A DNA stretch of 44,018 nucleotides from a virus. Below, in pieces: positions 2,255-37,741 of this stretch (position 1 is its first letter; each line of letters opens with the position of its first letter). Both the position numbers and the translations under genes were made by a program. Location of the stretch: positions 1 through 44,018 of the IMG/VR virus record IMGVR_UViG_3300049717_000050; one strand, 5' to 3'. Below the pieces are notes generated by a model that saw only the letters and a list, made by a program, of their open reading frames with translations, was not told the origin of the DNA and ran no database searches.

Positions 2255-4836
2255 GATTATTCGACGCCGCACCAGTGCGACGCGAGACGCAAATAAGTAA
2301 CATTCCGTTACCGAACCCGTCCGGGCTCAAGGCGCGGACGTACCAGGAAGAGGCGTTCGCAGGCGTCGAGAAGCAGCTTGCGGACAACCGGAGCACCCTG
2401 CTCGTGCTTCCCACCGGCAGCGGCAAGACGTTCATCTTCTCGCGCATCGCCCACGGATGGCCTGAGCGTGCCTACGCTCGCGAGCTGAGCGGACGCGTAC
2501 TCGTACTTGCCCACAGAGACGAGCTGCTACAGCAGGCCCGCCAGCGCATCGCCAAGGAGACTGGTGAACTGGTAGGTCTCGAGCAGGCGGAAGCGCGGGC
2601 AGGGCTTGAGCGCATCGTCGTGGGCAGCATCCAGACGCTCTGCCAGCCTAACCGGCTTGCGAGCTGGAAGAAGGACACCTTTGGGCTTGTAATCTGCGAC
2701 GAGTGCTTCCCGGCCGGGACGCTCGTAGACGGATTCCCGATTGAGGACTTTCGCGAAGGTGACTGGGTCTGGTCCGTTGACCACTCCAGCGGAGACTTAG
2801 TCCGAAGGAAAGTTGTTCGCAGGTTCGTAAAAAAATCACACTCTCTCACGAAATTGCGGTATGGTGCGACCGAGACAGTATCGACCAACAATCATCCGTA
2901 TTTCGTGAAAGGACGTGGATATGTCGAAGCTCAATCGGTTGTACCAGGGGACTTGCTGTGTGTGTGGGGAGCCGTTCACCGGAACTCTCTGGAATGTCAA
3001 TCGCCCACCGAAGCTATGCAAAAAGCCGGAGTGCAAGAACAAGCTATCCTCGCTCACGATGGCGAAGACGAACACGGTCCACGCGAGCGCCAGAATGAAG
3101 ACGCGCAACCCAATGCACAGGGACGACAACCTGAAACGGATGAAGGCAACCCTAAAGCGAATTGGACACAAGCCATCCGTTCGTGGTGGAAACGGCTGCG
3201 GGGCGACAAAGGCAGAAGAGGCGGTGGCAAACGCCTTTGGGTGGCCAATGCAGGTGGTTGTTCGGACGAACATGCCTCGGGTGTCAGGGTATCCGAGTTG
3301 CTACAAGATCGACGTGGCAAACCCATCTCTCAAGGTGGGAGTGGAGGTGGACGGCTTCTCCCATACTTCACTTGCGAGGAAGGCCCAGGATGCGAAAAAG
3401 GACGCCTTCTTACGTGGGTTAGGGTGGATAGTGCTGAGAGTGTCGAACCGGCAGGCGCTGGAGGAACTGTCGTCTACAATCTCGAAGTTGAGGGCTCTCA
3501 TACCTACTTCGCCAACGGCACCTTAGTCCACAACTGCCATCACGGTCCATCGCCGAGCTACAAGCGCGTCTTCGAGCACTTCGGATCCGCGAAGCTGCTC
3601 GGGGTCACGGCCACTCCCGACCGGGCGGACGAAAAGGCCATGGGCCAGGTGTTCGAGTCGGTGGCATTCGTCTACGAAATCGAGGACGCCATCAACGACG
3701 CATGGCTGGTGCCCATCCGCGTGCGCCAGGTGTTCATCGACGCCATCAAGCTGGCATCGTGCAGGACCACGGCCGGCGACCTGAACCAGGGCGACCTGGA
3801 TGCTGCCATGGCCGTCGAGGAGGCGCTTCACGGCGTCGTCAATGCGACCATCGAGCAGGCCGGCGACAGGAAGACCATCGTCTACACGACCAGCGTGGAC
3901 AACGCCACAAGGCTGGCTGAGATCTTCAACCGCTACCAGCCGAACACCGCCCGTGACGTGAACGGAAAGACTCCCATCGATACGCGCCGGCAGATTCTTG
4001 CAGGGTTCGAGCGCGGCGACTTCCAGCGCCTGGTCAACTGCGGGATCGCAACCGAGGGCTTCGACTGCCCGCCCGTGAGCTGCATCGCCCAGGCGCGCCC
4101 AACGAAGAGCCGTAGCCTGCACGCGCAGATCGTCGGGCGTGGCCTGCGCCCCGTCTACGCCAGCGGATTCGACCTCGAGACCGTGGAAGGGCGGCGGCAG
4201 GCCATCGCAGCCGGCAAGAGCGATTGCCTCGTGCTCGAGTTCACAGGCAACAGCGGCAAGCACCGACTCTCTAGCGCGGTGGACATCCTCGGAGGGCGAT
4301 ACGACGAGGACGAGGTAGAGGCCGCCAAGAAGCTCGTCCAGGCCAAGCCTGGCATGCGAGCAGACGAAGCGCTGGCCGTTGCCCACGCCGAGGCCGAGAA
4401 GCGCAGAGCAGACGAATCGGCGAAGCGGGCTCGCCTCAAGGCGACCACGAAGTACAGCACGCGCGACTTCTCGCCGTTCGATGTACTAGGCATCAAGCGC
4501 ACCAAGTCTGACGACTGGGGAGACAGGTTTGGCGGTGCTATCGCAACAGACAAGCAGGTCGGCTACATGCGGAGCATGGGCATCGACGTTCCAAAGGACT
4601 GCACCAAGACGCAGGCGATGCGCCTAATAGGGGCCTGCCAGAATCGGAAAGCAGAAGGGCTTGCAAACTACAGTCAGGTCGTGAAGCTCGGACGCGCTGG
4701 CATCGACGGGTCCAAGCTGCGCTGGCAGCAGGCCGCCGATCTGTGCTGGGAAGTGCAGCAGGCAGGAGGTCGCCCGAGCGCCGAAGTGGTGGACAGGATT
4801 TTGAATCGAGAAAGGAGTGCCGGTGAAGATGGCTGA
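2245..4836 (+). CDS. SF2 DEAD/DEAH-type helicase interrupted by an intein
   Basis: The reading frame has 863 codons. Removing the predicted intein (residues 154-430) leaves a 586-residue helicase. Motifs in order are a Q-like TYQEEA (about 32-37), Walker A PTGSGKT (56-62), LAHRDELL (about 88), the split DE|CHH box (152-153 then 431-433), VTATPDR (454-460), KTIVYTTS, GIATEGFDCP and QIVGRGLRP. This resembles RadD/type III restriction-like phage helicases that unwind DNA in replication or recombination. The C-terminal 150 residues are outside the helicase core and unassigned. The GTG start has GAGGAAG about nine bases upstream. One of the dispersed inverted repeats lies inside codons 18-23. Confidence 0.92.
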   Translation: MQLGLFDAAPVRRETQISNIPLPNPSGLKARTYQEEAFAGVEKQLADNRSTLLVLPTGSGKTFIFSRIAHGWPERAYARELSGRVLVLAHRDELLQQARQRIAKETGELVGLEQAEARAGLERIVVGSIQTLCQPNRLASWKKDTFGLVICDECFPAGTLVDGFPIEDFREGDWVWSVDHSSGDLVRRKVVRRFVKKSHSLTKLRYGATETVSTNNHPYFVKGRGYVEAQSVVPGDLLCVWGAVHRNSLECQSPTEAMQKAGVQEQAILAHDGEDEHGPRERQNEDAQPNAQGRQPETDEGNPKANWTQAIRSWWKRLRGDKGRRGGGKRLWVANAGGCSDEHASGVRVSELLQDRRGKPISQGGSGGGRLLPYFTCEEGPGCEKGRLLTWVRVDSAESVEPAGAGGTVVYNLEVEGSHTYFANGTLVHNCHHGPSPSYKRVFEHFGSAKLLGVTATPDRADEKAMGQVFESVAFVYEIEDAINDAWLVPIRVRQVFIDAIKLASCRTTAGDLNQGDLDAAMAVEEALHGVVNATIEQAGDRKTIVYTTSVDNATRLAEIFNRYQPNTARDVNGKTPIDTRRQILAGFERGDFQRLVNCGIATEGFDCPPVSCIAQARPTKSRSLHAQIVGRGLRPVYASGFDLETVEGRRQAIAAGKSDCLVLEFTGNSGKHRLSSAVDILGGRYDEDEVEAAKKLVQAKPGMRADEALAVAHAEAEKRRADESAKRARLKATTKYSTRDFSPFDVLGIKRTKSDDWGDRFGGAIATDKQVGYMRSMGIDVPKDCTKTQAMRLIGACQNRKAEGLANYSQVVKLGRAGIDGSKLRWQQAADLCWEVQQAGGRPSAEVVDRILNRERSAGEDG
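2297..2311. promoter_or_regulatory. Dispersed inverted repeat, site 1
   Basis: GTAACATTCCGTTAC, with 5-bp arms GTAAC/GTTAC around ATTCC. The same 15 bases occur at 7444, 15492 and, reversed, 25015. Here it lies inside the helicase gene, 53 bases after the start. The left flank AAATAA is AT-rich like the other sites. A repressor operator or stoperator-like roadblock is inferred. Confidence 0.6.
2704..3534 (+). mobile_element. Intein (277 residues) in the helicase DECHH box
   Basis: Splicing signals in the helicase frame are complete. Block A is CFPAGTLVDG starting with Cys1 (residue 154), block B contains TNNHPYFV, and VVPGD follows. Block F is VYNLEVEGSHTYF, and block G is NGTLVHN followed by Cys+1 (residue 431). 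The penultimate His and terminal Asn are present, so class 1 protein splicing that restores DE-CHH is expected. The roughly 170 residues between blocks B and F are hydrophilic and low-complexity in this frame. They show no LAGLIDADG or HNH motif, because that DNA encodes an endonuclease in another frame. Insertion in a catalytic motif is typical of inteins. Confidence 0.9.
2921..3526 (+). CDS. Vsr/EDxHD-like homing endonuclease nested out of frame in the intein
   Basis: 201 residues, in a different frame from the surrounding intein (codons start one base later). The N-terminus has a zinc-finger-like set, CCVC (12-15) with C33 and C38. A PD-(D/E)xK/Vsr-like core follows: KAEEAVANAFG (97-107), YKIDVANP (128-135), VEVDGFSH (141-148), D157, then GLGWIVLRV (167-174). 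The E-x-D-G-x-x-H...D arrangement is that of EDxHD homing endonucleases, known as freestanding partners of split inteins. The ATG at 2921 has AAAGGA (2908-2913) seven bases upstream. The TAG stop lies within the codons of intein block G. It probably cuts intein-less helicase alleles. Confidence 0.82.
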   Translation: MSKLNRLYQGTCCVCGEPFTGTLWNVNRPPKLCKKPECKNKLSSLTMAKTNTVHASARMKTRNPMHRDDNLKRMKATLKRIGHKPSVRGGNGCGATKAEEAVANAFGWPMQVVVRTNMPRVSGYPSCYKIDVANPSLKVGVEVDGFSHTSLARKAQDAKKDAFLRGLGWIVLRVSNRQALEELSSTISKLRALIPTSPTAP

Positions 4837-5188
4837 CGCAAACGAAAAGCAGAACCAGCGACGCGAGCTGAGCAAACGAGCCTGGGCGGAAGCCTTTAAG
4901 CGACTATTCGCAGCTGCCGGCTCTGACTGGCCCACCGGAACCAACCTCTCAACGCCAGAGATAGACCGCGCCGAGAAGGAGGCCAACGAAGCCACCGAGG
5001 CTTACGCGCAGACGGGCCGGGCTGGGGCACGCGAGGCGCTGGCAAAGTGGGAAGCGCTCATGATGCTCGCAATCCAAGCGACCAAGGGCAAGCGCGGCTG
5101 CGACGAGTGCGGACAAGAGAAGGTCGTCGAAATCGTAGACAAGGACGGCCGACGGTCGTGCGGGCGATGCCTAGCCGGTACGGAGTAA
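4823..5188 (+). CDS. Hypothetical protein with C-terminal zinc motif
   Basis: 121 residues from GTG 4823, which lies five bases after AAGGAG; ATG 4829 is an alternative. The helical charged body (RRELSKRAWAEAFKRLF, EKEANEATEAYAQTG) ends with a CDECG...CGRC zinc-knuckle-like pair. It overlaps the end of the helicase gene by 14 bases, so it is co-transcribed. No family recognised. A zinc ribbon next to a helicase suggests a DNA-metabolism accessory role, by context only. Confidence 0.6.
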   Translation: MKMADANEKQNQRRELSKRAWAEAFKRLFAAAGSDWPTGTNLSTPEIDRAEKEANEATEAYAQTGRAGAREALAKWEALMMLAIQATKGKRGCDECGQEKVVEIVDKDGRRSCGRCLAGTE

Positions 5189-5300
5189 AGCACGGCCTTC
5201 CCGGCTATTCGGAGCGTGGCACGAAATCAAACTGCAACTCTACCACCAAGCCGTCGACGAAGGATTCTGGCGACGAGAAAAGGCTGACTGCAATGCTTGA
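5178..5300 (+). other. Coding-like stretch without a start codon
   Basis: The frame reading SKARPSRLFGAWHEIKLQLY through HQAVDEGFWRREKADCNA to TGA (5298-5300) looks like the end of a real protein, but no ATG, GTG or TTG precedes it. It begins within the last codons of the preceding gene in the +1 frame. It could be a frameshifted extension of that gene (programmed, or a sequencing or assembly error) or a remnant. Confidence 0.3.
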
Positions 5301-7163: not shown

Positions 7164-7440
7164 GGATCCCTTTCCGCCGCATGGACACGGCCCAGTCGAT
7201 GGCCTCTGTCACCGAACGCAACACTACCACCGGAGAACCTCGCCAGGAAGCCGCGAAAGCCAACTGGTTGGGCCGCAGCGGCGCTTTTCCGGTTTTCAGC
7301 TCTACCAGGTAGGTCGAGGAGCCCATCCCAACCACGAGGTCAGGAAAGCCGTTGCCAGCGTGGGCAGCGTCGTAGACCGATAGACCGATCTTTCGGAAGG
7401 CGTCGACTACTTGGCTGTGGATGGAATCTCGTTTGACCAT
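7129..7440 (-). CDS. VRR-NUC / PD-(D/E)xK nuclease-like protein
   Basis: 103 residues. The sequence GFPDLVVGM, then YLVELKTGKAPLRPNQLAF and a late VVLRSVTEAIDW, matches the D...ExK...Q pattern of VRR-NUC/Holliday-junction-resolvase-like nucleases. In phages these are linked to recombination or packaging-end processing. It lies oddly inside the lysis region. The ATG at 7440 is three bases from inverted repeat site 2, and no strong ribosome binding site is visible, so the repeat could control this gene. Confidence 0.75.
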   Translation of the reverse strand: MVKRDSIHSQVVDAFRKIGLSVYDAAHAGNGFPDLVVGMGSSTYLVELKTGKAPLRPNQLAFAASWRGSPVVVLRSVTEAIDWAVSMRRKGIHDGRRTEASAA

Positions 7441-7443: not shown

Positions 7444-7458
7444 GTAACATTCCGTTAC
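7444..7458. promoter_or_regulatory. Dispersed inverted repeat, site 2
   Basis: GTAACATTCCGTTAC, extended by TTAATT on the right. It overlaps the stop codon of the 7455-7748 gene (its TAA is inside the repeat) and ends three bases before the start of the VRR-NUC-like gene, so it occupies the translation-initiation region of that gene. Confidence 0.6.
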
Positions 7459-8418: not shown

Positions 8419-8682
8419 TCACGGTGCCAAAGGGCCGCATGATGTCGCCGACGCCAAGTCGTGCAGGTCCCAAGGCTGGCCGGCGTTCGTGGCGTTGAGA
8501 CATACCATCTCGCAACTCGCGCCTTTGGGCGTTGGCTGAGCCCACAGGCACCCTATGGCGGCGCCGTGGTCGCAGACCGAAGCGCACGTCAACGGGCCGC
8601 CAGCGTCAGCGGAGGGCGCTGGGGTAGGCGTGTGGGCGCAGGATGCGACGAACAGAGCGATTGCAAGAACGAGAGATTTCAT
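8419..8682 (-). CDS. Cys-rich lipoprotein (outer spanin candidate)
   Basis: 87 residues with a lipoprotein signal, MKSLVLAIALFVASC, lipid Cys15. Ala at +2 would allow outer-membrane sorting under the enteric rule. The mature part has six more Cys (33, 37, 45, 58, 61, 82), so it may be disulfide-bonded. The start overlaps the protease stop as ATGA. In another frame, 8342-8440 encodes 32 residues ending in LCDAWEICFP, perhaps a lost or frameshifted extension. Position in the lysis cluster suggests an outer spanin. Confidence 0.65.
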   Translation of the reverse strand: MKSLVLAIALFVASCAHTPTPAPSADAGGPLTCASVCDHGAAIGCLWAQPTPKGASCEMVCLNATNAGQPWDLHDLASATSCGPLAP

Positions 8683-9476
8683 TCGACACCCCCGGTGGTC
8701 AAATTCACGAACCAGAAGTCAGAGCCTTGCTTGATGGCGTCGTAGCTGAATCGGCAGCAGCCGGCCGGCTGGCCAGGCTCCGACCAAGTCGGCCCCCAAG
8801 AATTCTTGACTAGAAACCACTCTCCTGCGTGGTCAAAACCCACCAAGCTCATGCAGTGGCCGCCAGCGATGGCTTCGCCCGGCTTGATCGGCTGAACGAT
8901 GCCATCGGGCCACGTACCGCAGAACTCCTCGGATACGGTGATCCCGAAGGCCACGCCACGCCCGCTCGTCAGCACACGTTCGAGCATCGCAATCAGATCG
9001 TCGCCGTAGAGCCGAACCGGGACGTAATTGACGTTCACGTCGCCCTTGCGGTCGAAGGCATTGCTATCCACGTCTGGAGTAGGCGCCACTGCGAAGCGCG
9101 CGACGTCGTAGGGCCACACCGCCTCTTCGGGGACGCCCATGTCAGAGACGACCTCGAACGAGCCGCCCACGCTTGCGCCGGTGTCCTCGGATGCGTTGCC
9201 GTCGCGGTTGCGATTCCAGTAGTAGATGGCAAGCCGAGACGCGATGAACGCCGGGAAACCTTCGCGCACGAGCTCCATGTAAAGCACCTGGGCGGCGCCA
9301 TTGGCGGTACAGCTACCGAGTTGCCCCTGGTCAAGGTCGCAGCACAGCGCAGAGTTGTCAGATGTAGGCGCGGCCAGAGGAAGCTTGACCGACGAAAGCG
9401 GGTGGGCCTTGCAGAGGTGGCGGATCTGCTGTTCGAGGGATGGCGGCGACCATCCGAGAGCGCGAGCGGTCGTCAC
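8679..9476 (-). CDS. Papain-like (C1) cysteine peptidase
   Basis: 265 residues with a full papain triad: DQGQLGSCTA gives oxyanion Gln50 and nucleophile Cys56, GGHCMSLVGF gives His207, and VKNSWGPTW gives Asn225. No signal peptide, prodomain or membrane segment is visible. It lies between an exported protein and a lipoprotein in the lysis region, both linked by 4-bp overlaps. Possible roles are degrading host envelope protein at lysis, acting on virion proteins, or an anti-host function. C1 peptidases are uncommon in phages. Confidence 0.88.
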   Translation of the reverse strand: MTTARALGWSPPSLEQQIRHLCKAHPLSSVKLPLAAPTSDNSALCCDLDQGQLGSCTANGAAQVLYMELVREGFPAFIASRLAIYYWNRNRDGNASEDTGASVGGSFEVVSDMGVPEEAVWPYDVARFAVAPTPDVDSNAFDRKGDVNVNYVPVRLYGDDLIAMLERVLTSGRGVAFGITVSEEFCGTWPDGIVQPIKPGEAIAGGHCMSLVGFDHAGEWFLVKNSWGPTWSEPGQPAGCCRFSYDAIKQGSDFWFVNLTTGGVE

Positions 9477-12108: not shown

Positions 12109-14316
12109 CTATTCCTTCGTTCCACTGTAACGCATTCTCTCTCCGATTGAGGCAGAGAAGCGCTCTTTCTGCTTGCGCGCCTGCTCGACCAGGCTCTTTG
12201 CCGCCGATGCCCCTGACGCTGCGGTTGCGATGCCCATCATGCCTGGAATCGACGAGCGCATAGCTGCGGCGTCCGGCGTGTTCGCCGCGATGGTCGACGC
12301 CAGAGGCTGACCGATGCGGCTGCCGATCTTCTCTCCTGCCATCGCCTCCAGCGATAGCGCGTGCGCCGGGGAGTGGGTGGTGGCTCCAAGGGCCGCCAGG
12401 GTGAGAGGGTGGGTCAGGCTTCCGAGGCGGAACTTCGAAGCCTCCTGTGCCACCTTGGACTCCAGCACGGCGTCGGTCTGCGGCTTCAGCTCGCGTCTGA
12501 TGTCCACGAGCTTGGCTGCTGTCTCTGCCTTCACCTTGGCCACGGCGTCATCGTGCGCTTGCTGGGTCTCGTAGGAAAGCTGGTCAACGTCGCGAAGACG
12601 CTGCTCCATCTCGAGGATTTCAGGCTCGTAGCCGTACTTGATGAGTTCTTCACGGTGGGGAATCTTGGCAGCAGCGGATGTCGTGGTGTCGCCGAGCTGG
12701 ATCAGCCCCTGGCGCCCTCTGGCCTCGGTTTGCGGAGACAGGTCAACCTTGGCCTCGTCAGGTCCCCCGAAGACGATCTGCTTCGTGCGCTCCTGCTCAG
12801 TGGTGGCTGCGCGGAACCGTTCGTTCGACTGGGCGTACAGGCCGGGTCCGTCGTCTTCCCTCGTGGGGTCCACGTTCTTGGCGTGGGTCTTCAGCTCACC
12901 AAGGAGTGTTTCGTACGGCCACCGCTGCTCGTCTGTCCCTGACTGTGCCTTAGATTTCGCGTACTTGATGGCGTTCCTGAAGTCGCGCATGGTGGCGCCA
13001 GATTCAGGAAGGAAGTCCTTCAGATCGGAAGCTGCTGAAGCGAGCGCTCGGCCGTTCGGGAGCAAGACTTGCTCGCCAGGCTTCGAGGCGCCCTCGCTGG
13101 AGTAGCCCTTCACGAGATCCTGGGCCTTCCTGAAGAACCCCGACGTGTCCAGCAGCTTGCCGGCGGTGCGCTGGTCGAGATCCTGCATCTCGCTTTCCCT
13201 GGTCGTTTTGGTTGAGGCGCGCTGGTCTTCGAGCTTCTTGGTGATGGCCTGGGCCGCCTCGTCTGCGGCGTCTCCCCTGCTCATTTTGTAGCCACCAAGC
13301 GCTGCGTCGGTGTCGCGCTTCATGTCGGCGATGGTCCGGCGCTCCTGCGTGCGCACGGGCGCCTCTAGCGCTGGCATCTGGTCCTCGTAGCTGAGGTTGG
13401 CCAGCTCCTTGGCCTGCTCGATGCCGGCCTGGCCTTCCATGAGACTGGCCATCGGCTCCTGCCGGTGGGCACCTGACGCCTTGTCGCGAGCGAAGGTCTG
13501 CGCTCGGCGCCCGACGATGGTGTTCGGGTTCGATGCCCACGACGAGATGCCAGGAAGAAGGCTGGAGATGCCACCCATGGCGGCCGGCGCGGCGATCTCC
13601 TGCCCAACGTTCACCGGAGGAACCTGCGCGGTGACGGGCTGCCCATGCGCGGCCTGTCCTAGCCCTTGCTCAACCGCAGGCAGGCGACGAATGGCGGCCT
13701 CTCCGGCCCCGATGGCGGCGCCAGTTCCGGCGCCCGCTGCAACCGTCCTGGCGAGCCCTGGAGCGTTTCCAACTAGGTTCTTGTAGATACCTGAAACCGG
13801 CGCCATCAAGGCGTTCGACGCCATTTGCACGCCCTTGCCAAGAAGTCCTGCCTGTCCGACTAGAGGAGCTGAAGCGCCGAGTGTGTTCTGGGCTATTTCT
13901 CCTAGTTTTGAACTGGCAAGAGGTGAATTTGCCATCGCCTGGCGAATCTCACCTGGCCTTGGTAGCAGGTTGGGAACTGGAATCACCTTCGAAATCCCTA
14001 GCCTGTCAGAAAGCTCGCCACCTGCCTCAAGCGCTGGGGCCACGAACGGAAGTCCAGAGTACACGGATCCGGCTAGCCCAGCGATAGTATCCCCGATTGG
14101 AGCATCGCGCGGGAGAGGCAGCGGCTGCGCCGTAGTGGCGAGCTGCCGGTCAATGTGAGCCTGCTGCTCGGGACGAAGCGGCATGGCCACCGAAGGCTTC
14201 ACCCTAGACGCCAGGACCTTCTGGGCAAGCGGATAGAGCTGCCCGCTCGGGTCGCCGTTCTCGACGATGAACTGGAGCTTCTGGTCGCTTAAGCCTGCGA
14301 GGTCGGACGCATCCAC
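12109..14316 (-). CDS. Large internal virion (DNA ejection) protein candidate
   Basis: 735 residues from GTG 14316, which overlaps the preceding TAG by one base. The N-terminal third has Gly/Ala-rich membrane-active segments (LARTVAAGAGTGAAIGAGEA). The middle and end are long charged helices (HDDAVAKVKAETAAKLVDIRR). Size, helical content and place after two other large proteins and the gp10-like gene match P22-type ejection proteins. This is inferred from position and composition. Confidence 0.5.
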   Translation of the reverse strand: MDASDLAGLSDQKLQFIVENGDPSGQLYPLAQKVLASRVKPSVAMPLRPEQQAHIDRQLATTAQPLPLPRDAPIGDTIAGLAGSVYSGLPFVAPALEAGGELSDRLGISKVIPVPNLLPRPGEIRQAMANSPLASSKLGEIAQNTLGASAPLVGQAGLLGKGVQMASNALMAPVSGIYKNLVGNAPGLARTVAAGAGTGAAIGAGEAAIRRLPAVEQGLGQAAHGQPVTAQVPPVNVGQEIAAPAAMGGISSLLPGISSWASNPNTIVGRRAQTFARDKASGAHRQEPMASLMEGQAGIEQAKELANLSYEDQMPALEAPVRTQERRTIADMKRDTDAALGGYKMSRGDAADEAAQAITKKLEDQRASTKTTRESEMQDLDQRTAGKLLDTSGFFRKAQDLVKGYSSEGASKPGEQVLLPNGRALASAASDLKDFLPESGATMRDFRNAIKYAKSKAQSGTDEQRWPYETLLGELKTHAKNVDPTREDDGPGLYAQSNERFRAATTEQERTKQIVFGGPDEAKVDLSPQTEARGRQGLIQLGDTTTSAAAKIPHREELIKYGYEPEILEMEQRLRDVDQLSYETQQAHDDAVAKVKAETAAKLVDIRRELKPQTDAVLESKVAQEASKFRLGSLTHPLTLAALGATTHSPAHALSLEAMAGEKIGSRIGQPLASTIAANTPDAAAMRSSIPGMMGIATAASGASAAKSLVEQARKQKERFSASIGERMRYSGTKE

Positions 14317-16385
14317 TACTTCATCCCCTTCAGCGCGTCGAGCAGTTGCTGGTCAGAGCGCTTCCCGCTAGGGGCACCGCCAGATGCCGGCGCCGCTGTA
14401 CCCCCGTTGAAGTCAGGGATGAGAGGCGAGTCGCCGAACCACTGCCTCGGCTGCTCGCCGATGAAGCGCAGCTTGGAATTGATCTTGTCCTGCATGCGCT
14501 CGTGGAACGGTACCCCGGCGCTCTTGTAGGCCTCGGACTGGGCCGAGATGTTCTTTAGGGCCATGCCCTGGATGGCCTTCTGCGACTCGACGATGGCCTG
14601 CTCAAGCCCTGCGCGCTGCCCCTCTGGCAAGTGGGCAATATTGGCGATGGCTTCCTTGTCGGCCTGGGATCCGCTGAAGTTGGTCCACAGGTCTGAAATC
14701 CCTACCTTTTGACCAAGCTTGTCGAGCATCGTGCCGAGGTTTCCGGTGACGCTCTTGAACTCGTCCGTCTCGTTCTTGGCAGGAACGCCGCCTCGGATGT
14801 AGCCGAAGAAGTTCATCATGGATTCCATCTGCTGCGCACCGCCGAGGTCGCCCTTGGCTCGGATGTTCTGGAGGGCCAGGTTCAGGCGGTCGAAACCGAT
14901 GCCTTCGAGCTTGGTCCAGTTCATCTCTCGGTCGAGCATGTTCACGCCGTTGTTGACCGAGTTCTCGATGCGCGACTGCTCTGTCGGCTTCAGACGGGAG
15001 AACGCGCTGCCCTGGCCGGACGACTGCACGACGGTTCCGCTCTTGCCTCCACCACCACGGCCGTACTTCGACGTCGCGCGCCTAGTGGCGTTGTTCTCGG
15101 CGGCGATCTTCTCCTGCGTGGCCAGCCGATCTGACTGCATGCCCTCGTTGCTGGCAATCTGCGCACCCTGGCGCTCCATGGTGCCGGCCTGGGCGTAGAC
15201 CTGCTTGATCTCTGCCGTCGACATGTCTCCAAGAAGAGACTGCTTCTTGATGGTAAGATACTGGAATACTTGAGGATTCAGCTTCGTCGCAGGGTCCGCT
15301 AGCGCGACGTCGATTTCTCGAAGCGCCTGGGCAGATTCGTCGCGACGGGCCGCGCGGGCCTCGTTGGGGTCTACCGTGATTACTTGGCCATCGGGAAGGT
15401 GAGCCTCCCACCGGCCGCCCTGTGGCTGCCCGGCCTGCATCGACATTCCCTTGACGTCGGCGCCTGGCACGAATTGACTCGTCGAATTAGGTAACATTCC
15501 GTTACTTAATTCAGGGTTGTCGACCGGTGGCAGCGGGCCAGAGAACGGGTTTCCTTTTCCGCCCTTGAGGTTCACGTCTTCTGGGGCGAATCGCTGACCT
15601 TCCTTGGCGCCCTCGGGGAACGCCTGGATGGGAAGCTCTTGGCGGGTCTCTCCACCTGGCCCACTGAGCGCCGTGGCGGTGCCCTCGTCGTTGCGGTCGA
15701 GAAATATGGAATTGTCTGGCTCTTGGGCCTGCGGTTCTGGCGCCGGCTCGGACGGCGGTGCCGCGCGCGACATGAGCGCTTCTAGCTGCGGGTCCACCTG
15801 CGTCTGTCCGTCTGGCGTTGCACTCGCCACGGGCGGAGGCAGACGCTTCTGCGCCAGTGCGAACGGCAGGTTCATCACCGCAGGGCCACCCATGGAAGGC
15901 TGTGCTCCAGGAGGTGGAGCATCGGTAGGCGCTGGCGGTGAAGGTTCTGGAGGAGCTTGCACCGGGGATACTGGAGGCGGCGCTGCGGCCGCCGGCACCT
16001 GTGGCGCCTGTCCACCAACGAACTTCCAGTCGACATAGGCAGGGTTGCCGTCTGGCCCCTGAACAAGCATGGTGCCAGGATGCTGGCCTCGCGCGATGGC
16101 CGCCTTGGCCTCCTTGAGCGATAGCTGCGTGGCCTGGGCGCGCTTGTACGACGCATCGGCATCGACCTTCTTCTCGGCGATGTCCTGCTTGCGCCGGCCG
16201 TACGCTTCGCGCTCGGCATCGCGTGCGAGGAGACGCTTCTGGTTTTCCTCTGCCTGCGCAGCCTGGTCCTGCTGCTGCTGAAGCTCCATCCTCCGCTGGG
16301 AGAAGTGGTCGATCATGCTCCCGAGGGAGTTGATCTGCGGAACGAAGCTGGGAGGAGCTACGGGAGTGTCGAATGGGCTGGGCAT
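14316..16385 (-). CDS. Large internal virion protein candidate, coiled coil and Pro-rich
   Basis: 689 residues from ATG 16385. A strong coiled coil lies at about 20-80 (QRRMELQQQQDQAAQAEENQ), then a Pro/Gln-rich linker and a helical C-terminal half. It sits between two other large proteins, as expected for an ejection-protein set. An open frame extends a little upstream into the neighbouring gene, but the ATG five bases after its stop is the natural start. Inverted repeat site 3 is inside. Confidence 0.5.
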   Translation of the reverse strand: MPSPFDTPVAPPSFVPQINSLGSMIDHFSQRRMELQQQQDQAAQAEENQKRLLARDAEREAYGRRKQDIAEKKVDADASYKRAQATQLSLKEAKAAIARGQHPGTMLVQGPDGNPAYVDWKFVGGQAPQVPAAAAPPPVSPVQAPPEPSPPAPTDAPPPGAQPSMGGPAVMNLPFALAQKRLPPPVASATPDGQTQVDPQLEALMSRAAPPSEPAPEPQAQEPDNSIFLDRNDEGTATALSGPGGETRQELPIQAFPEGAKEGQRFAPEDVNLKGGKGNPFSGPLPPVDNPELSNGMLPNSTSQFVPGADVKGMSMQAGQPQGGRWEAHLPDGQVITVDPNEARAARRDESAQALREIDVALADPATKLNPQVFQYLTIKKQSLLGDMSTAEIKQVYAQAGTMERQGAQIASNEGMQSDRLATQEKIAAENNATRRATSKYGRGGGGKSGTVVQSSGQGSAFSRLKPTEQSRIENSVNNGVNMLDREMNWTKLEGIGFDRLNLALQNIRAKGDLGGAQQMESMMNFFGYIRGGVPAKNETDEFKSVTGNLGTMLDKLGQKVGISDLWTNFSGSQADKEAIANIAHLPEGQRAGLEQAIVESQKAIQGMALKNISAQSEAYKSAGVPFHERMQDKINSKLRFIGEQPRQWFGDSPLIPDFNGGTAAPASGGAPSGKRSDQQLLDALKGMK
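15492..15506. promoter_or_regulatory. Dispersed inverted repeat, site 3
   Basis: GTAACATTCCGTTAC flanked by GAATTAG and TTAATTC, inside the coding sequence of the 14316-16385 gene. Here the repeat encodes part of LPNST and cannot be a simple intergenic promoter element. Confidence 0.6.
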
Positions 16386-21508: not shown

Positions 21509-21735
21509 ACGCCCTCTCGCTTCTTGCCCTCGACGGGCTGAATCTCACCCAAGTCCTGCGCCGAGATGTCCGCGAGTTCGCTCAGCGTGAGCCCTTCACG
21601 GCAGTCTGGGCAGCGAAGAAAACCATCCGCATCTGGGCCGGTCAAATCGGTGCGGTGGTAGAACACGCCGCAATAGTCGCACATCTCGGTGTAGTTGTGC
21701 AGCGGACCTTGGTAGTTGCGACCGATGGTAGCCAA
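21505..21735 (-). CDS. Small zinc-ribbon protein (TTG start)
   Basis: 76 residues with CDYCG...CPDCREG, a zinc-ribbon pair at about 19-45. The start is the TTG at 21735, with GGAGG close upstream; no ATG or GTG gives a sensible protein. It sits between the hairpin at 21753 and the gp4-like gene and overlaps the latter by four bases. The ribbon suggests a structural or nucleic-acid contact. The role is unknown. Confidence 0.55.
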   Translation of the reverse strand: MATIGRNYQGPLHNYTEMCDYCGVFYHRTDLTGPDADGFLRCPDCREGLTLSELADISAQDLGEIQPVEGKKREGV

Positions 21736-21752
21736 GAGACCTCCGAAAGAAC

Positions 21753-21801
21753 TGGCCGGGAGGGAACTTTGGGGAGTGACTCCATCGCCACCTCCCGGCC
21801 A
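21753..21801 (-). terminator. Long perfect-stem hairpin after the beta-helix gene
   Basis: TGGCCGGGAGG (21753-21763) and CCTCCCGGCCA (21791-21801) form a perfect 11-bp stem. A small inner GGAG/CTCC hairpin lies in the loop. On the minus strand TTCTTT follows. It lies in a 74-base gap and may attenuate transcription after the abundant capsid-region messages. It could also be an RNA-processing site. Confidence 0.5.
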
Positions 21802-21809
21802 GGAAACCT

Positions 21810-22805
21810 CTACGCTGAAATGGTGCCTTGGTTCTGCTTTGCCGTCTCGTTGACGTCGTTGACGATTCGGTTGTTGTCCTGGGTCACGTCGACGCCGGTT
21901 CCAGTGAACACGATGCCCTGGAGGCTGGAATTGTTCATCACGCGGAACGAGTTCTCGGCGATGAGTCCAGTCGTCACCATGTTGCCGGCGAGCGAGATGC
22001 ACGCCGAGGAGTCCGACTTCCAGTTGAAGAAGAAGTTCTCCATGATGAGGACACGGTTGCTGGTCGCCGTGCTGTTGATGTTCGCGACGATCCCAGTGGT
22101 CGCCGCAGACATTGCCGCACTCACGATGTTGCCGACGCAGATGAAGTCGTCAGCGCCAGTGGTGGCTGTCCCTAGGACAATCACGTTGGTGATGGCGGTC
22201 GCCTGCGTGTCAGCGTACGCCTTGTTCCCCACGAACCGGCAGTTGGCTGCCGAGACGGTGAGCAACGTGGCGCACTTTTGCGTGTTCGAGGTCCCGAGGT
22301 GGAACTCGCAGTTGATGAGGCTGGCACCTTCTCCAGTCATGTTGAACGCCTGCGTGATTGTCGTTGCCGCCGTCCCGTCGCAGACGAACTTGATGTTCGT
22401 GATGAGCGACCCTGCGGTCATCGTCACCGTGGAGGCAGCCGCCGTGAGCGTCACCACCGGGCGGGTGTTTCCCCATCCGTTTCCGATGATGCGCGTACCA
22501 GCAGGGATCGCCCAGGCCGTAGCCGTGGCGATGCTCTCGGTGTGACCAGGAAGCACCATGACCACGTCGCCACGGCTTGCCACGCAGAGAGCGAGGGCCG
22601 CAGCGATTGACGGGTACACGTACCTGGTGTTGTCGGCGGTTACAGCGGTGTACTGGTCGTCGTAGTTCAGGACCGAAGTCCCGTTACCGCGAACCATGAA
22701 CACTCGCCCCGTGGCCGGGATCGAGTAGGCGCCCAGTAGGTCGAGCGGTCGGTTGCTCGGTACCGCCTGGGGCGTACTCGCGGCCAATGCCTGTATGATG
22801 TACAT
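21810..22805 (-). CDS. Right-handed beta-helix virion protein
   Basis: 331 residues. Serial segments such as TNIKFVCDGTAATTITQAFN, SLINCEFHLGTS and NRVLIMENFFF show the parallel beta-helix pattern of pectate-lyase-like proteins. It follows the capsid gene directly and has a strong AGGAGG site, so it is probably abundant and could be a head decoration or fibre protein. No catalytic residues are evident. Confidence 0.6.
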   Translation of the reverse strand: MYIIQALAASTPQAVPSNRPLDLLGAYSIPATGRVFMVRGNGTSVLNYDDQYTAVTADNTRYVYPSIAAALALCVASRGDVVMVLPGHTESIATATAWAIPAGTRIIGNGWGNTRPVVTLTAAASTVTMTAGSLITNIKFVCDGTAATTITQAFNMTGEGASLINCEFHLGTSNTQKCATLLTVSAANCRFVGNKAYADTQATAITNVIVLGTATTGADDFICVGNIVSAAMSAATTGIVANINSTATSNRVLIMENFFFNWKSDSSACISLAGNMVTTGLIAENSFRVMNNSSLQGIVFTGTGVDVTQDNNRIVNDVNETAKQNQGTISA

Positions 22806-22817
22806 GGGGCTTGCCTC

Positions 22818-23738
22818 CTAGGTGGCGCCGAGGATGAACGCCCGCCAGTTCGAGACGCCGATGGCGGCCCGGTAGCTGACGCCGTGGTGAGCGACCTCGC
22901 CGTCGTTGTCGACCCACACCTTGCCTCGAATGGGGCGCTTGATGAGGTAGCGCATGCCATCGTCGGCATCGGTCATGCCTGCCCAGAACGTCGTCGACAC
23001 GGCGTCGTACCAGAACACCGGAACGAGGTCCAAGTCATACGACTTGGTGATGTTCATGTCGTTGAAGTTGTTGCCGACGGTCTTGTCGCAACCGGTGATG
23101 TTCTTCCAGAGGTCGAGCTGCGCCTCGGGGAACGTGATGCCAGTGAAGCGCTTCCCGTCCGGGATGCCGTTCGGGCCAGGCAGGATCGTGGCCGCGATTC
23201 GCATCTGAATGAGAGCCGCTTGGCTCGGGGTCATGCCGATGATGGAGCCGCCAGCCGAGGAGATGAGACAGTTACTGGCCGTCCCGCCTGCCGTGATGAC
23301 GTGCGACGTCGAGAACAGCGCCACGTTGTCGTAGCCCTGGAGAGTCGTGGTGCCGTTCATCATGACCGTGGCGGCGTCGATGTCCTGCGTGTTGTACGCA
23401 GACTTCTGGAGACGCTTGCTGGCGTTGATGATCTTGTCGTACTTGTTGTCCTCCATCGCCTCTTCGGAGATGGAGAGCTTGAGGGCCAGCGTCTTCGGGA
23501 TGTACCGCTTGGTACCACCGACGATGATCTCTTGCGAGGACATCGGCTTGCCTTCGTCCTTCTCCGACAAGAACGTGGTGCCCGCGACTTCGATGTCGTC
23601 GGCGTACCCATCCTGCATCTTCTCGGTCGTGCAAAGCTTGCCTTTGCCGATGCAGACTTGGTTCTTGCTCAGATTCTCGGTGGTGATCTCATCGAGGGTC
23701 TTCTTCATTGCCTTCCAGAGTGGGTTGCTCGTAATCAT
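22818..23738 (-). CDS. Major capsid protein
   Basis: 306 residues starting MITSNPLWKAMKKTLDEITT. NVALFSTSHVITAGGTASNC resembles the conserved LFSxxH...GGTxSN stretch of HK97-fold capsid proteins (including the Mu gpT-like group). RYIPKTLALKLSISEEAMED and a C-terminal AAIGVSNWRAFILGAT fit as well. The gene follows a scaffold candidate and precedes the head-tail genes, as expected. Confidence 0.75.
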   Translation of the reverse strand: MITSNPLWKAMKKTLDEITTENLSKNQVCIGKGKLCTTEKMQDGYADDIEVAGTTFLSEKDEGKPMSSQEIIVGGTKRYIPKTLALKLSISEEAMEDNKYDKIINASKRLQKSAYNTQDIDAATVMMNGTTTLQGYDNVALFSTSHVITAGGTASNCLISSAGGSIIGMTPSQAALIQMRIAATILPGPNGIPDGKRFTGITFPEAQLDLWKNITGCDKTVGNNFNDMNITKSYDLDLVPVFWYDAVSTTFWAGMTDADDGMRYLIKRPIRGKVWVDNDGEVAHHGVSYRAAIGVSNWRAFILGAT

Positions 23739-24985: not shown

Positions 24986-24991
24986 AGAAAC

Positions 24992-25009
24992 GCCACCCCG
25001 AAGAGTGGC
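24992..25009 (-). terminator. Rho-independent terminator with UUCG tetraloop
   Basis: On the minus strand the sequence is a 7-bp stem GCCACTC/GGGTGGC (one G-T pair) closed by a TTCG tetraloop, followed by GTTTCTTTTTG. It lies 30 bases after the scaffold-candidate gene and separates packaging/scaffold messages from capsid messages. Confidence 0.8.
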
Positions 25010-25014
25010 ATTTC

Positions 25015-25029
25015 GTAACGGAATGTTAC
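25015..25029. promoter_or_regulatory. Dispersed inverted repeat, site 4 (reverse orientation)
   Basis: GTAACGGAATGTTAC, the reverse complement of sites 1-3. It lies in the ten-base region between the scaffold-candidate stop (25039) and the terminator stem (25009). CTAATT flanks it, as at site 3. Confidence 0.6.
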
Positions 25030-25038: not shown

Positions 25039-25938
25039 CTAGGCGTCGCGGAAGTACTCCGGACCCATCATCTTGGACCACTTGGCGTAGGCTTCCGTCT
25101 CTTGAACCCCAGCGCCAGCATAGGCAATTGCCATCTTCTTCTCGTCCTTCGTGAGTGCCCTCGTGGGGCCGCCGTTGGAACCATTCCCGGTCGAGCTCGC
25201 ACTTAGGCTGGAGAAACGCCCCTGCTGGACTGGGTTGCGCGAAGGCAGCGCCTTGGGTCGCAGGTAGAAGTCCTCTGCGGTCTTGGCGAGCACAGCCCTG
25301 TGGGTGGCCATCTCGTCGAACGGGCGCTTATCGCGGAACGCCCTGATCTTCTCCTGGGTGAAGAGTGCCCCGGCGTAGTTCGTGGCGTCCGGGCCGTAGC
25401 CAAGCACGTCGGCGAACTCGGTGCGGGCCAGCCGGTGCACAGGGTCTTCTGCCGGCGGGTTATCACGGCGGAACTGGTCGCGAACCGAGTTAGCTTCCTT
25501 GGATGCGATGATCTGGCCCTTGCGGTACTCGGCATCGTGCCACTCGTCTTCGAGGCGTTTGATCTCCGCAGGGTCCTGCGAGGCGCGAACGAGCGAGACG
25601 ATGCGTGACTGCTCGCTCACGATCTTGCGCCACGCAGGGTCTGCGCCAGCCTTAGCAGGCTCCTGTGCCTGTTGCTGTTGGGCCTGCTGCACCGGGCGCT
25701 GACTCATCTGCGCCATGAGCGCGAGCTGGTCGCGCAGAGGCTTCTGGGCCTCCTCGATGAGCTTGCGCGTGCGATCTGCGGACTCTCGCTCTCGGCGCTC
25801 CTTGCGGGTCTCCCGCTGGACCTCAACGACCGGCTCGCCACCGTCGTTGTTCTTTACCGAGATTTCAGGCTGGTCGTCTTCGGGCATGCCTTCGGTGGAT
25901 TCCAGCTCCTCTGCGTCGTCTTCACGTTCTTTGGTCAT
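25039..25938 (-). CDS. Scaffolding protein candidate
   Basis: 299 residues with a very acidic N-terminus (EREDDAEELESTEGMPEDDQ), a long charged coiled coil (RKERRERESADRTRKLIEEA, KRLEDEWHDAEYRKGQIIAS) and a mixed C-terminus ending in an aromatic tail. This composition and the place between portal and capsid genes fit a scaffold. AGGAGTGAACC precedes the ATG. Confidence 0.65.
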   Translation of the reverse strand: MTKEREDDAEELESTEGMPEDDQPEISVKNNDGGEPVVEVQRETRKERRERESADRTRKLIEEAQKPLRDQLALMAQMSQRPVQQAQQQQAQEPAKAGADPAWRKIVSEQSRIVSLVRASQDPAEIKRLEDEWHDAEYRKGQIIASKEANSVRDQFRRDNPPAEDPVHRLARTEFADVLGYGPDATNYAGALFTQEKIRAFRDKRPFDEMATHRAVLAKTAEDFYLRPKALPSRNPVQQGRFSSLSASSTGNGSNGGPTRALTKDEKKMAIAYAGAGVQETEAYAKWSKMMGPEYFRDA

Positions 25939-26466: not shown

Positions 26467-26719
26467 AGCGCTGCGCCTCCTCAAGGATGGACCGAATACG
26501 CTCAAGGGCCGCAAGGCTGCACCCCACTTCGACCAGGGCACGCTCGTTGAGTTGGCCCATGCTCGCGCACCTGACGACGCCGATGGCGCTCTTCTTTTCC
26601 TCGCCAATCGACTCATCGATCACCCTTACGAACTCAATCGTTCCTGGGTGAGCTAGCCAATCCTGAATGACGTCCTTGTCGAGCGTTCCTAGGACGCTCC
26701 TGTCTTTGATCTCAGCCAT
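26450..26719 (-). CDS. Hypothetical small head-region protein
   Basis: 89 residues, mostly helical (QLNERALVEVGCSLAALERI, RSILEEAQRYANSI). AAAGGAGTGAACC precedes the ATG, the same leader seen before the scaffold candidate and before two early genes. It overlaps the next gene by 17 bases. No family recognised. Confidence 0.55.
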   Translation of the reverse strand: MAEIKDRSVLGTLDKDVIQDWLAHPGTIEFVRVIDESIGEEKKSAIGVVRCASMGQLNERALVEVGCSLAALERIRSILEEAQRYANSI

Positions 26720-26737
26720 GGTTCACTCCTTTGGGTT

Positions 26738-28990
26738 CTATTGGCCAGGGGCCGCTTGCGTTGGTGTGCCGGGGAGTGGCCGCTGTGGCGGACGCACGCC
26801 GGGTGTGTTTGTGGGCTGCCCAGTGGGCACGGTCGGGTGAGGCTGTCCACCTGGAGGTGGAGTACCAGGTGGCTGCGCGCCTGGAGGTGGAACCTGCTTC
26901 GCCTGGAGCTTGGCCATGATTTCCTGGTCGCTGAGCACCATGCTCGCCAGGTCGTACATTCCGCGCGCCTTGAAGCAATTGCGGGCGATTGCCGCGAACA
27001 TCGTGGGTTGGAAGATCATCGAGGCGATTTGCGGCGGGATGCCCTTCGTAACCATGCCAAGAGCGTCGTCCGACTCGGCCACCTTAGCCGCGCGGCTGGA
27101 AAAGCTCAAGTCTGCCGAGAAGCAGATCTCGTAGCCGTCCTTGTACAGGTCCCTGGTTACCTTGATGTTCATGGACTTCTGGGTAGCAGGGTCGACCACG
27201 TCTTGGAACTTCTCGTCGGGCAGGAACTGGTAGTTCAGTAGGGCGTTGTTCTTGGCCACCTGATTCAGGACCATGATGAAGTTCTGCGCGAACACGCTGA
27301 GCTGCTTCGTGGCCTGCTCTACGCGAGTCGCCTGACCACGGAAGGTCTCGTCGCCTTCCTTCTGGCCAGAGAGCACGTCTGGCGCCGAGCTGATGCTATC
27401 GGCGGCGCTCTCCTGCATCTGCACGCCAGAGAGAAGCTGCTGGTTTGCGGGGGACGTCGGGAATCGGAACATCGCCTTCTCGATGCCATCCGGTGGAACT
27501 CCGCGAACGCGCTCGAAGGTTCCCGGATTGATGGTCTTCACGCCAGGGTCGAGCTTCAGATGCTCGTGGATGAGACCACGGTCACTGTTGGCAAGCGTCC
27601 CCTGGTCGATAAACTGGTTGGTGAGGATGTTGGCAGCAGCCTGGTGGGGCATAAGCAGCATGCCGAGCCCGAGCCCGTGGGAACCATCGGGGTTCTCGAT
27701 GCACGTCCCATGGCTGAACCGCTCGATGATCTTCTGCTTGCACGGTACCGGTCCATCCATGCTGTCGGTGAGCCACTGTGGGCGCATGGGTGGTTGCGGC
27801 CTCTGGGCCTGGACCTGCTGTGCAACGGCCAGCGATTCCTCCATGGGCACGCTTGGGTGCTTGATGGTCTCCAGGAGCTGCTGCTCGAGCTGCATGGCCT
27901 GCTGGTAGCGGCCGATGGCCTCCAGGTACTGCTGGTGCTCGGCTGTCTGCTGGTCGAATCGGCCTCTGTCCTCCGGGTCGTCGTAGTACCGGCTGTAGAG
28001 ACCCATGAGGGTGCGCGTCTTGCCGTCCACCACGGCGATGACCGGCATCTCCTCGTCCTGGTACGGGAACGCGACCCACGTGTGCTGCTCCAGTAGGTAG
28101 TACGGCGCGTCCGAGACGTTCTCGGAACGGTCATTACCCTCGAAGCGGTCGGCAGCGTCCTTGATGACCTGCTCCAGGTCGATTTCGTGCGAGCCGTCTT
28201 CTTTCGTGACCACCGAGACCTGTGCGTAGTACCCATCCTTCTCGGCCTTCTGGAGATCGCGCTTGTACGGGAACAGGACCTTGGTCTTGCGGGGCACGTC
28301 AGACATATCAACTGCGGTAGTCTTGCGCGTGTACGGGTAGACGAACTCGTCGCAGTTCAAGTGCTCGTGAACATTGACGTTTTTGGCGAGGTCGCGGCGC
28401 GAATCGAAGATGCAATCGCCATCCCTGAAGAACTCGATAAGGGCGCGCATGACGTGCCTTGGAAAGTCGGGTATCTCGCGCTGGAATTGCCAGTTTTCGT
28501 GCTTCGTGACGACGTCCGCACGGTCCTCGCCGAGCTTCGAGCTGACCTGGGCTGAGAACACCGGCTCCCCCTGCTTGAAAATTTCTGCCCACACGCGGGT
28601 AGCGAGCCGCAGGATGCGCGTGGAGAGAATCGGCACGTGCATGTTCGCGCAGCCTGCGAAAGGGAAGCTCTTGGGCTCGATGGCGCCCAGGAAAAGCTTC
28701 ATGCGCTCCAGTCGCTTCGCACGCCACCCCTTGCTGGCGTCCCAGTCCTCATTGAAGTGCTTCACCACCTGCTCGGGAAGGTCTTTCTCGACGAACTTCT
28801 TCACCTTGTCGTCGGTCTGCGCCTTTTCGAGCAGGAACGGGACCAGATTGACCACGTCGTCTGGCAACTGGAGACCAGGCTGAAGCGGATTGTCGGTAGC
28901 CGCCGGCTGGATGGCGTCTTCGCCTGTTTCCTCGGCCGGCGGATCCATGGATTCAGCTTGCGGGTCGTTTTCGTTGTCGCTCATGCTCAT
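26738..28990 (-). CDS. Portal protein (P22-like)
   Basis: 750 residues from ATG 28990 (ATGA overlap with the upstream gene). RLERMKLFLGAIEPKSFPFA near the start and the long middle region with HTWVAFPYQDEEMPVIAVVD resemble large P22-type portals. GLGLGMLLMPHQAAANILTN, typical of a portal stem/crown region, and RGQATRVEQATKQLSVFAQN follow. The C-terminus is a Pro/Gln-rich tail (PPGAQPPGTPPPGGQPHP). It forms the DNA entry ring and lies next to terminase as expected. Confidence 0.78.
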   Translation of the reverse strand: MSMSDNENDPQAESMDPPAEETGEDAIQPAATDNPLQPGLQLPDDVVNLVPFLLEKAQTDDKVKKFVEKDLPEQVVKHFNEDWDASKGWRAKRLERMKLFLGAIEPKSFPFAGCANMHVPILSTRILRLATRVWAEIFKQGEPVFSAQVSSKLGEDRADVVTKHENWQFQREIPDFPRHVMRALIEFFRDGDCIFDSRRDLAKNVNVHEHLNCDEFVYPYTRKTTAVDMSDVPRKTKVLFPYKRDLQKAEKDGYYAQVSVVTKEDGSHEIDLEQVIKDAADRFEGNDRSENVSDAPYYLLEQHTWVAFPYQDEEMPVIAVVDGKTRTLMGLYSRYYDDPEDRGRFDQQTAEHQQYLEAIGRYQQAMQLEQQLLETIKHPSVPMEESLAVAQQVQAQRPQPPMRPQWLTDSMDGPVPCKQKIIERFSHGTCIENPDGSHGLGLGMLLMPHQAAANILTNQFIDQGTLANSDRGLIHEHLKLDPGVKTINPGTFERVRGVPPDGIEKAMFRFPTSPANQQLLSGVQMQESAADSISSAPDVLSGQKEGDETFRGQATRVEQATKQLSVFAQNFIMVLNQVAKNNALLNYQFLPDEKFQDVVDPATQKSMNIKVTRDLYKDGYEICFSADLSFSSRAAKVAESDDALGMVTKGIPPQIASMIFQPTMFAAIARNCFKARGMYDLASMVLSDQEIMAKLQAKQVPPPGAQPPGTPPPGGQPHPTVPTGQPTNTPGVRPPQRPLPGTPTQAAPGQ

Positions 28991-29628
28991 TTCCGATTCT
29001 CCCACAGTTGGGTTCTAGGATTCCACACCTGCCCAGGGTTCCCCCACCCGGCCCCTGCGTCGGCAGGGATCGCACCAGACGGATTCCGGCGCACCAACTG
29101 GCTCTTAGCGACGGTCGGATGCCACGGTGGAATAGATGTGAGCTTTCCATCACCATTCCCATCACGAGCGTCGATGAACGCGGCCTCGTCGGAATCCGTC
29201 CATGATCCACCTGCACCACTGCCGCCCTTCCCACGCTGACTACCACCCGTCTCGGAAGTTGGGTTGTTGTCCTTGTCATGCCATCCACTCCAGGCATCCA
29301 GAACGGTTGGCACGTCTCCGTATCCACCTCCAGGAGCTTGCGAGTTGGTAGCCTCTTGCCAGATTCGCTTAAGCTCACCTGCGGGTGCACCAGAAATCTT
29401 CGTATGATCGAGGAATTCATCCTGGGCGTGCTCGATGTCGTGCCCGACTATCCATTCTCTCGGTACAGAGAACGTGACGCCCTCAGGGTCTTCCAGAACC
29501 ACCTCGTTCTTGCCGGTGTCTGGGTTGTCACCGCTCGCCACGATGGATAGTGGGACTCCCTTGATGTCCTTGTACTTGGCAGCGACAAGGGTTTGCATCT
29601 GATCCGCGCCTAAGACTGGTTCGCTCAT
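28987..29628 (-). CDS. Hypothetical protein between terminase and portal
   Basis: 213 residues from ATG 29628, overlapping the terminase stop as ATGA. The N-terminal half contains GKNEVVLEDPEGVTFSVPRE. The C-terminal half is Gly/Asn/Pro-rich (GGSQRGKGGSGAGGSWTDSD, WNPRTQLWENRK). No family recognised. Strict 4-bp overlaps on both sides indicate one translational unit with the packaging genes. Confidence 0.55.
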   Translation of the reverse strand: MSEPVLGADQMQTLVAAKYKDIKGVPLSIVASGDNPDTGKNEVVLEDPEGVTFSVPREWIVGHDIEHAQDEFLDHTKISGAPAGELKRIWQEATNSQAPGGGYGDVPTVLDAWSGWHDKDNNPTSETGGSQRGKGGSGAGGSWTDSDEAAFIDARDGNGDGKLTSIPPWHPTVAKSQLVRRNPSGAIPADAGAGWGNPGQVWNPRTQLWENRK

Positions 29629-36546: not shown

Positions 36547-36590
36547 GGTCCCATGTTGCCAGAAACCCACGCATCGGGCAATACTACCGC

Positions 36591-37327: not shown

Positions 37328-37666
37328 CTATAGCGCCGGTTTCGACGGTGGCCGGTCCAGCCCGGTACCCCCTCCCGTGTGTGTTAGGTTGCGCGTGCTG
37401 TCAGCCAGGCGCCGCGCCTCCAGCCTGGCCCGTTCACGGCACCGCTGGTTGGCGGCGCGGTCCACCAGGCGCGGGAGCATGTGGTCTATCAGGGTCACGG
37501 CATCGGTGCAGGTCAGGTAGGCCGGACTCGCGGACAGGGTCGCTCTGCCTGCGAGCGGAGCCCGTATCACTGTAAGACCCGAGTCCTTCGCCCAGCTCAC
37601 CACGGTAGGGTTGCTCACGCCCAGCATCCTAGCCAGGCTCGCCACGCGTATCAGGTTGCACAGCAT
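37328..37666 (-). CDS. Small helix-turn-helix DNA-binding protein
   Basis: 112 residues. RVASLARMLGVSNPTVVSWA (residues 7-26) followed by KDSGLTVIR matches a MerR/excisionase-type HTH with the first wing. The rest is basic and ends in a disordered tail. It is the only recognisable transcription regulator in the window and lies 50 bases from an inverted repeat (37716) related to the four dispersed sites. It is the best candidate repressor or switch protein, by position only. Confidence 0.65.
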   Translation of the reverse strand: MLCNLIRVASLARMLGVSNPTVVSWAKDSGLTVIRAPLAGRATLSASPAYLTCTDAVTLIDHMLPRLVDRAANQRCRERARLEARRLADSTRNLTHTGGGTGLDRPPSKPAL

Positions 37667-37715
37667 GGCCAGAGTGTACCACGGCGGCTTCTAGAGTAGG
37701 AATGACGCTGTCGGT

Positions 37716-37741
37716 AATTAAGTTATATTTGTTACTTAATT
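37716..37741. promoter_or_regulatory. Inverted repeat upstream of HTH gene, overlapping a -10 candidate
   Basis: AATTAAGT (37716-37723) and ACTTAATT (37734-37741) are perfect 8-bp arms around a 10-base centre. The outer arms match the AATTA/TTAATT flanks of the dispersed 15-bp repeats, and GTTACTTAATT is shared exactly with sites 2 and 3. Rightward ATGACG (37702-37707), 16 bases before TATATT (37724-37729), is a promoter candidate that a protein bound here would block. Confidence 0.55.

Follow-up and report, generated by a model that had tools for sequence, protein, structure and literature searches.

Which protein reads a short palindrome that recurs, letter for letter, at distant points of a phage genome, even inside coding sequence? 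The question is raised by IMG/VR record IMGVR_UViG_3300049717_000050, positions 1 to 44,018, a stretch of 44,018 nt referred to here as the window. It belongs to a tailed phage with adaptor and portal matches of SU10-like type; late genes run leftward and early genes (ERF, ParB-like, helicase) run rightward. Comparison with related records suggests that the palindromes are probably DNA-binding sites of one phage protein, the likeliest being an orphan ParB-like protein of 339 amino acids (aa) encoded at 230-1249 on the + strand (start possibly GTG at 248). From sequence, the most fitting name for the ensemble is an orphan ParB/KorB-type system of a phage, together with a network of candidate sites. 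ParABS is not an apt label because no ParA was found, and a set of stoperators is not one either because number, symmetry and orientation fail.

Four identical palindromes and a degenerate relative

The 15-mer GTAACATTCCGTTAC is present in four exact copies, at 2297-2311, 7444-7458 and 15491-15505 on the + strand and at 25015-25029 on the - strand, as the first-pass annotation had reported save for one coordinate (15492, corrected to 15491). Its judgment that such a copy number exceeds chance was sound: shuffling the window 100 times with dinucleotides preserved gave a mean of 0.28 and at most 3 occurrences at up to three mismatches, a tolerance at which the window itself holds no copies beyond the four. 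No other palindrome of the 5-5-5 form has more than one identical copy in the window. Stems are of five pairs, and the centre, which is not palindromic, is identical in all four. The flanks had been described as AATTA-type; they are AT-rich, but AATTA stands to the left of only two of the four, with TTAATT to the right of two, and they otherwise vary. Relative to the genes, two of the four sites point each way. Spacing ranges from 5 to 13 kb when the genome is treated as a circle and the degenerate site P1 is included.

Placement in coding and junction positions was likewise described correctly. Site P4 (2297-2311, +), an exact copy, spans codons 18-23 of the helicase, in an N-terminal linker, and P3 (15491-15505, +) falls in a variable linker of the late gene at 14316-16385. 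P5 (7444-7458, +) lies directly upstream of the VRR-NUC start codon (ATG at 7440, - strand), while P2 (25015-25029, -) comes after the stop codon of 25039-25938 and is followed directly by an intrinsic terminator (24987-25014, -).

P1 (37716-37741; AATTAAGTTATATTTGTTACTTAATT) is a degenerate site 50-75 bp upstream of the gene for a small winged helix-turn-helix (HTH) protein of 112 aa (37328-37666, -), the candidate reader of the first-pass annotation. The sequence GTAACAAATATAAC is retained in the relative G001. P1 was rightly called a relative of the other sites, because canonical sites occupy the same intergenic region in two further relatives, G010 and G012. A -10 candidate had also been placed upstream of the HTH gene; the scan gave a single promoter-like match near P1, with a -10 of TATATT at 37724-37729, but it is on the + strand and faces away from that gene.

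Conservation and joint change in relatives

Fourteen relatives (G001-G006 and G008-G015; some short or distant) were found via terminase, portal and capsid scans and, with the window, make up the 15 records counted below. The first capsid scan gave 80 loci, mostly distant, of which only L057 (G006), L059 (G008) and L041 (G005) enter this count; the remainder were screened for repeated palindromes only, and five loci had a repeat. One locus from a later scan for relatives, L140, was left out. G010 and G013 are taken as complete because they have exact terminal repeats (127 and 123 bases). G010, whose capsid protein is 57% identical to that of the window, was first met through the site sequence CTAACAAWTTGTTAG, among the matches listed, and later independently via its capsid gene. 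G002 was found by its terminase, and its sites are therefore no product of a site search. The exact 15-mer GTAACATTCCGTTAC has 32 single-copy matches in viral_contigs, among them L007, which is G001.

The pattern TAAC-N5-GTTA occurs 12 times in 6 of the 15 records, against 0.49 expected in shuffles. In all 12 the outer base pair is complementary (G-C in seven, C-G in five), although the 12 are not independent because the copies in the window and G001 share ancestry. Site letters are uniform inside each genome and differ between genomes. In G002, the positions orthologous to P2 and P3 both carry CTAACAAWTTGTTAG, which differs from the palindrome of the window and is the only repeated palindrome with 6-base arms in that record. 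In G010, CTAACAAWTTGTTAG occurs exactly three times: one copy is in the homologue of 14316-16385, another among the early genes, and the third precedes the HTH gene. The dyads of these two relatives extend almost to the centre.

Several positions are kept while the letters change. In a protein alignment of the late gene, P3 starts at column 522 in the same codon phase in the window, G002 and G010, within a linker that is variable and with the site encoding different residues across the three; the other two aligned homologues, G004 and G009, lack it. The P2 position is occupied in the window, in G001 (an identical copy), in G002 and in G011 (GTAACAAGATGTTAC, after the homologue of 25039-25938), and is empty in 6 of 10 records inspected. 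At the P1 intergenic region, canonical palindromes stand in G010 (40816) and G012 (25800) and degenerate ones in the window and G001; the G012 site, GTAACAAGTTGTTAC, is about 290 bp upstream of the HTH gene and beyond a conserved block, so that its position is similar rather than equal. The early-region site of G010 (31121) lies between the ParB-like and helicase genes, at a codon other than that of P4, and no palindrome was seen before the VRR-NUC homologue of G004.

A chance origin of the sites is excluded. Site conservation, for which the first-pass annotation had proposed a comparison with relatives, is thus found in the form of places kept in some relatives and letters that change jointly. 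These patterns support reading the sites as a conserved network of protein-binding type, with letters co-changing between lineages. When both halves of a dyad change, and do so at every site of a genome, this is the trace expected of a dimeric DNA-binding protein whose specificity shifts.

Two relatives have repeats of another kind. G013 (66% GC) holds four copies of GCGCTCGAGCGC, none of them at P3 by blast coordinates. G004 has a pair of GTAAGGCSGCTTAC palindromes upstream of its HTH gene (L051:705-759) and no other exact copy; these are perhaps candidate operators of its own.

The ParB-like protein as candidate reader

Co-occurrence makes the ParB-like protein a more likely reader than the HTH protein. 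Its gene is present in the window, G001 (where it is cut by the contig end) and G010, all three site-bearing, and thus in every site-bearing record that reaches its locus (3/3). It was not found in the two longest site-free records, G013 (complete) and G009 (40.9 kb, unclosed ends). This presence pattern is common to only 3 of the 56 predicted open reading frames (ORFs) of the window compared by tblastn: besides the ParB-like gene, these are ERF and an ORF of 74 aa that has no Pfam match. Among those three, the ParB-like protein alone has family members that are known to bind palindromes of such size. The ParB-like gene lies beside the ERF recombinase gene. Searches for further ParB-like homologues gave none in viral_contigs with the single protein, G010 alone with alignment A5, and none in genome_contigs, phages or plasmids.

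Profile matches of the 230-1249 protein (phrog_3264, 4e-5; TIGR00180, 3e-4; Spo0J/ParB in PDB, 1e-3) are weak but concordant, all lying below curated cut-offs where such exist. Weak by score yet in agreement, they point to a ParB N-terminal domain of CTPase fold. A putative helix-turn-helix is assigned to 740-820 on the + strand (AAAVAKVAAITGRTESAVKQADYR), a segment conserved in A5. In the G010 protein, phrog_8071 covers residues 52-196, including the part that matches this putative element. Between the proteins of the window and G010, identity is 76% in residues 7-134 and 53% in 166-339, and the two differ around the putative helix-turn-helix in parallel with their differing sites. The C-terminus carries zinc-ribbon-like CxxC pairs.

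Several observations weigh against this assignment. ParB_N itself scores below the Pfam cut-off, and structure prediction from two sequences reached a confidence (pLDDT) of only 37. The canonical ParB nucleotide motif has the form GERR; the proteins here have GG[RK]HR, so that CTP use is uncertain. The co-occurrence sample amounts to five records, three with and two without the gene; of the latter, G009 may be incomplete because no terminal repeat was seen, and the site-bearing records of G002, G011 and G012 do not extend to the early region. The window has no site at the ParB-like gene itself. Finally, palindromes of the form nTAACAWWWTGTTAn are numerous in G017, a phage record of 61 kb with no ParB_N match; a palindrome of this sort is therefore not by itself a sign of ParB.

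Other possible readers and roles

The first-pass annotation had named the HTH protein (37328-37666) as reader, and as an autoregulated repressor binding all the sites it remains an unlikely but arguable candidate. Its own gene has sites upstream, degenerate in the window and G001 and canonical in G010 and G012. Modeling also predicts a winged HTH with a fold related to pSK1 Par, RacA, BldC and MerR proteins. The model comes close to two DNA-binding domains, those of pSK1 Par (Z 8.6, root-mean-square deviation 1.7, 53 aligned) and RacA (Z 7.6, deviation 4.0, 60 aligned), although only the former stands out because Z scores below about 8 are common. KorA is absent among the fold matches listed, which excludes nothing. 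However, the HTH gene is found in all eight records that cover its region, and four of these (G004, G009, G013 and G014) have no TAAC-N5-GTTA site at all; on this ground the protein was demoted as reader. Further, P2 is identical in the window and G001 although their HTH proteins are only 54% identical, and P1 is degenerate in both. The gene is the first of the leftward late operon, and in G004 the homologue has the gene for the large terminase nearby; it is therefore as likely that the protein acts late, for instance as a small terminase. With a Terminase_5 match of 0.007, a small-terminase role is possible.

A reader supplied by the host, with different hosts accounting for different letters, appears quite improbable. 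It would fit site sequences that are uniform per genome and vary between genomes, and the similar palindrome in G017 without a ParB_N match is also compatible with it. Yet a phage gene from a suitable family accompanies the sites, and it is not evident what a host regulator would gain from sites within a late gene.

Recombination or mobile elements, kept alike by gene conversion or arriving at insertion hot spots, are a very remote alternative. The identical, non-palindromic centre of all four copies in the window could be so explained, and an ERF annealing protein is encoded. No integrase or resolvase was found in the proteins scanned, however, and a site can stay at its exact codon even as both halves of its dyad acquire new letters.

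RNA hairpins (terminator, attenuator or processing signals) are scarcely credible: P2 does directly precede an intrinsic terminator and weak hairpins are predicted for the DNA strand, but this reading was set aside for its weak stems, which have five pairs in the window, and it must also contend with the mixed orientation to transcription, the location of P1 upstream of genes, and dyads that in G002 and G010 reach almost to the centre.

A possible mechanism and its closest parallels

If the ParB-like protein is the reader, analogy with ParB, KorB and Noc suggests how it could act. A dimer would recognise each palindrome via the helix-turn-helix; the nucleotide-binding N-terminal domain would then close and spread along neighbouring DNA, and a few sites could be enough to label or cover much longer tracts of phage DNA. 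The outcome might be either silencing of genes until they are due, as for KorB, or the organising or segregating of replicating phage DNA. Binding, the clamp step and biological role are all drawn here from related proteins. Clamp loading that acts over kilobases would explain sites that are far apart and within coding sequence, both odd for ordinary operators.

The binding sites of Noc are dispersed. The likeness to Noc and to ParB-parS comprises this dispersal, a ParB-type N-terminal domain, a probable HTH and a palindromic target. The differences are the GG[RK]HR motif, the C-terminal CxxC pairs and the lack of ParA. A search with PF13614 found no ParA in the three records that bear the ParB-like gene (the window, complete G010 and partial G001), with its control positive in 14 of 14, and the ParB-like proteins of the window and G010 have no ParA-binding motif.

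KorB-OB of plasmid RK2 is another parallel. In the account given in PMC11790492, KorB is a ParB-family protein with short palindromic sites in its replicon, some far from promoters, and few palindromes suffice for sliding clamps that act over kilobases (PMC11790492). The RK2 system with KorA and the window share a ParB-family protein, short palindromes and a small HTH protein in the same genome. Here, by contrast, the replicon is a phage, two sites lie within coding sequence and sites change between relatives; a KorA-like role of the HTH protein is hypothetical, and binding, clamp and silencing are by analogy only. A KorAB-like circuit can be imagined, in which a ParB-family clamp loads at dispersed palindromes (two of them coding), slides for kilobases and is stalled by the winged-HTH protein where early and late promoters diverge. 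Without ParA, such a clamp would silence the whole phage genome or set the order of its expression, with specificity diverging like an immunity type. We regard this circuit as a speculative and rather doubtful extension.

The first-pass annotation had likened the sites to stoperators. Those of cluster A mycobacteriophages, as described in the sources consulted, are more than 20 asymmetric 13-mers oriented with transcription (PMC9283540), and among related phages their motif diverges in step with the repressor (PMC6550527). Shared features are the dispersal of sites over a phage genome and a motif that drifts between relatives. The comparison fails otherwise and was rejected: four exact sites and one degenerate one, dyad rather than asymmetric, in mixed orientation and with two inside genes. 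Matches to an integrase or a repressor were not found among the proteins scanned, a set that does not take in every short ORF.

According to one survey (PMC12704722), phages and other mobile elements commonly encode orphan ParB-like proteins, and a protein of ParB-CTPase fold without ParA on a phage fits that description. The survey, in the part consulted, covers folds, fusions and nucleotides and names no target sites for these proteins; dispersed candidate cognate sites in a phage are the feature that the window contributes. No described phage system of a ParB-like protein with dispersed sites was found in the literature searched.

Other features of these genomes

Upstream of the HTH gene, at about 37770-37850, lies a noncoding block (GGAAACAATACC ... 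GTTAACATTACGCACGACATGCACCTACA) with strong conservation in G001 and G012 and partial conservation in G010; it is possibly an origin, a packaging site or a regulatory RNA. The helicase gene of the window (2245-4836) contains an intein (Pfam intein/HINT match, 163-430), and that of G010 (26667-29363) an apparent one elsewhere, at the Walker A motif. In G009, about 1 kb interrupts the large terminase homologue (21122-23689) between residues 140 and 142, in the manner of an intein or intron.

The stretches 40442-41346, 43327-44018 and 1-230, between the ERF and ParB-like genes and nearby, hold three copies, diverged to 88-91%, of a repeat of at least 300 bases, along with long collagen-like Gly-Pro-Pro coding repeats. 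Both ends of the window fall within this repeat; in G001 and G010 the ERF and ParB-like genes are adjacent. An 82-aa low-complexity protein (39131-39379) consists mostly of GYGSG/GDGSG repeats, and the phage gene at 8679-9476 has a match to papain-family cysteine proteases (PF00112, 1.5e-7). An unrelated phage group, G016-G019 (L158, L155, L159, L161, L212; 44-49% GC), has dense nTAACAWWWTGTTAn palindromes and no ParB_N match; there are 10 in 5.8 kb of L159 and several at gene ends in L158.

Implications

This phage lineage offers a ParB-like protein and conserved, co-diverging candidate sites together, and with both halves in one lineage their role is directly testable. If the assignment is true, long-range control of the KorB type, analysed in plasmid RK2, would extend to phage, and the lineage would illustrate the way in which specificity shifts jointly in a clamp and in the sites scattered for it.

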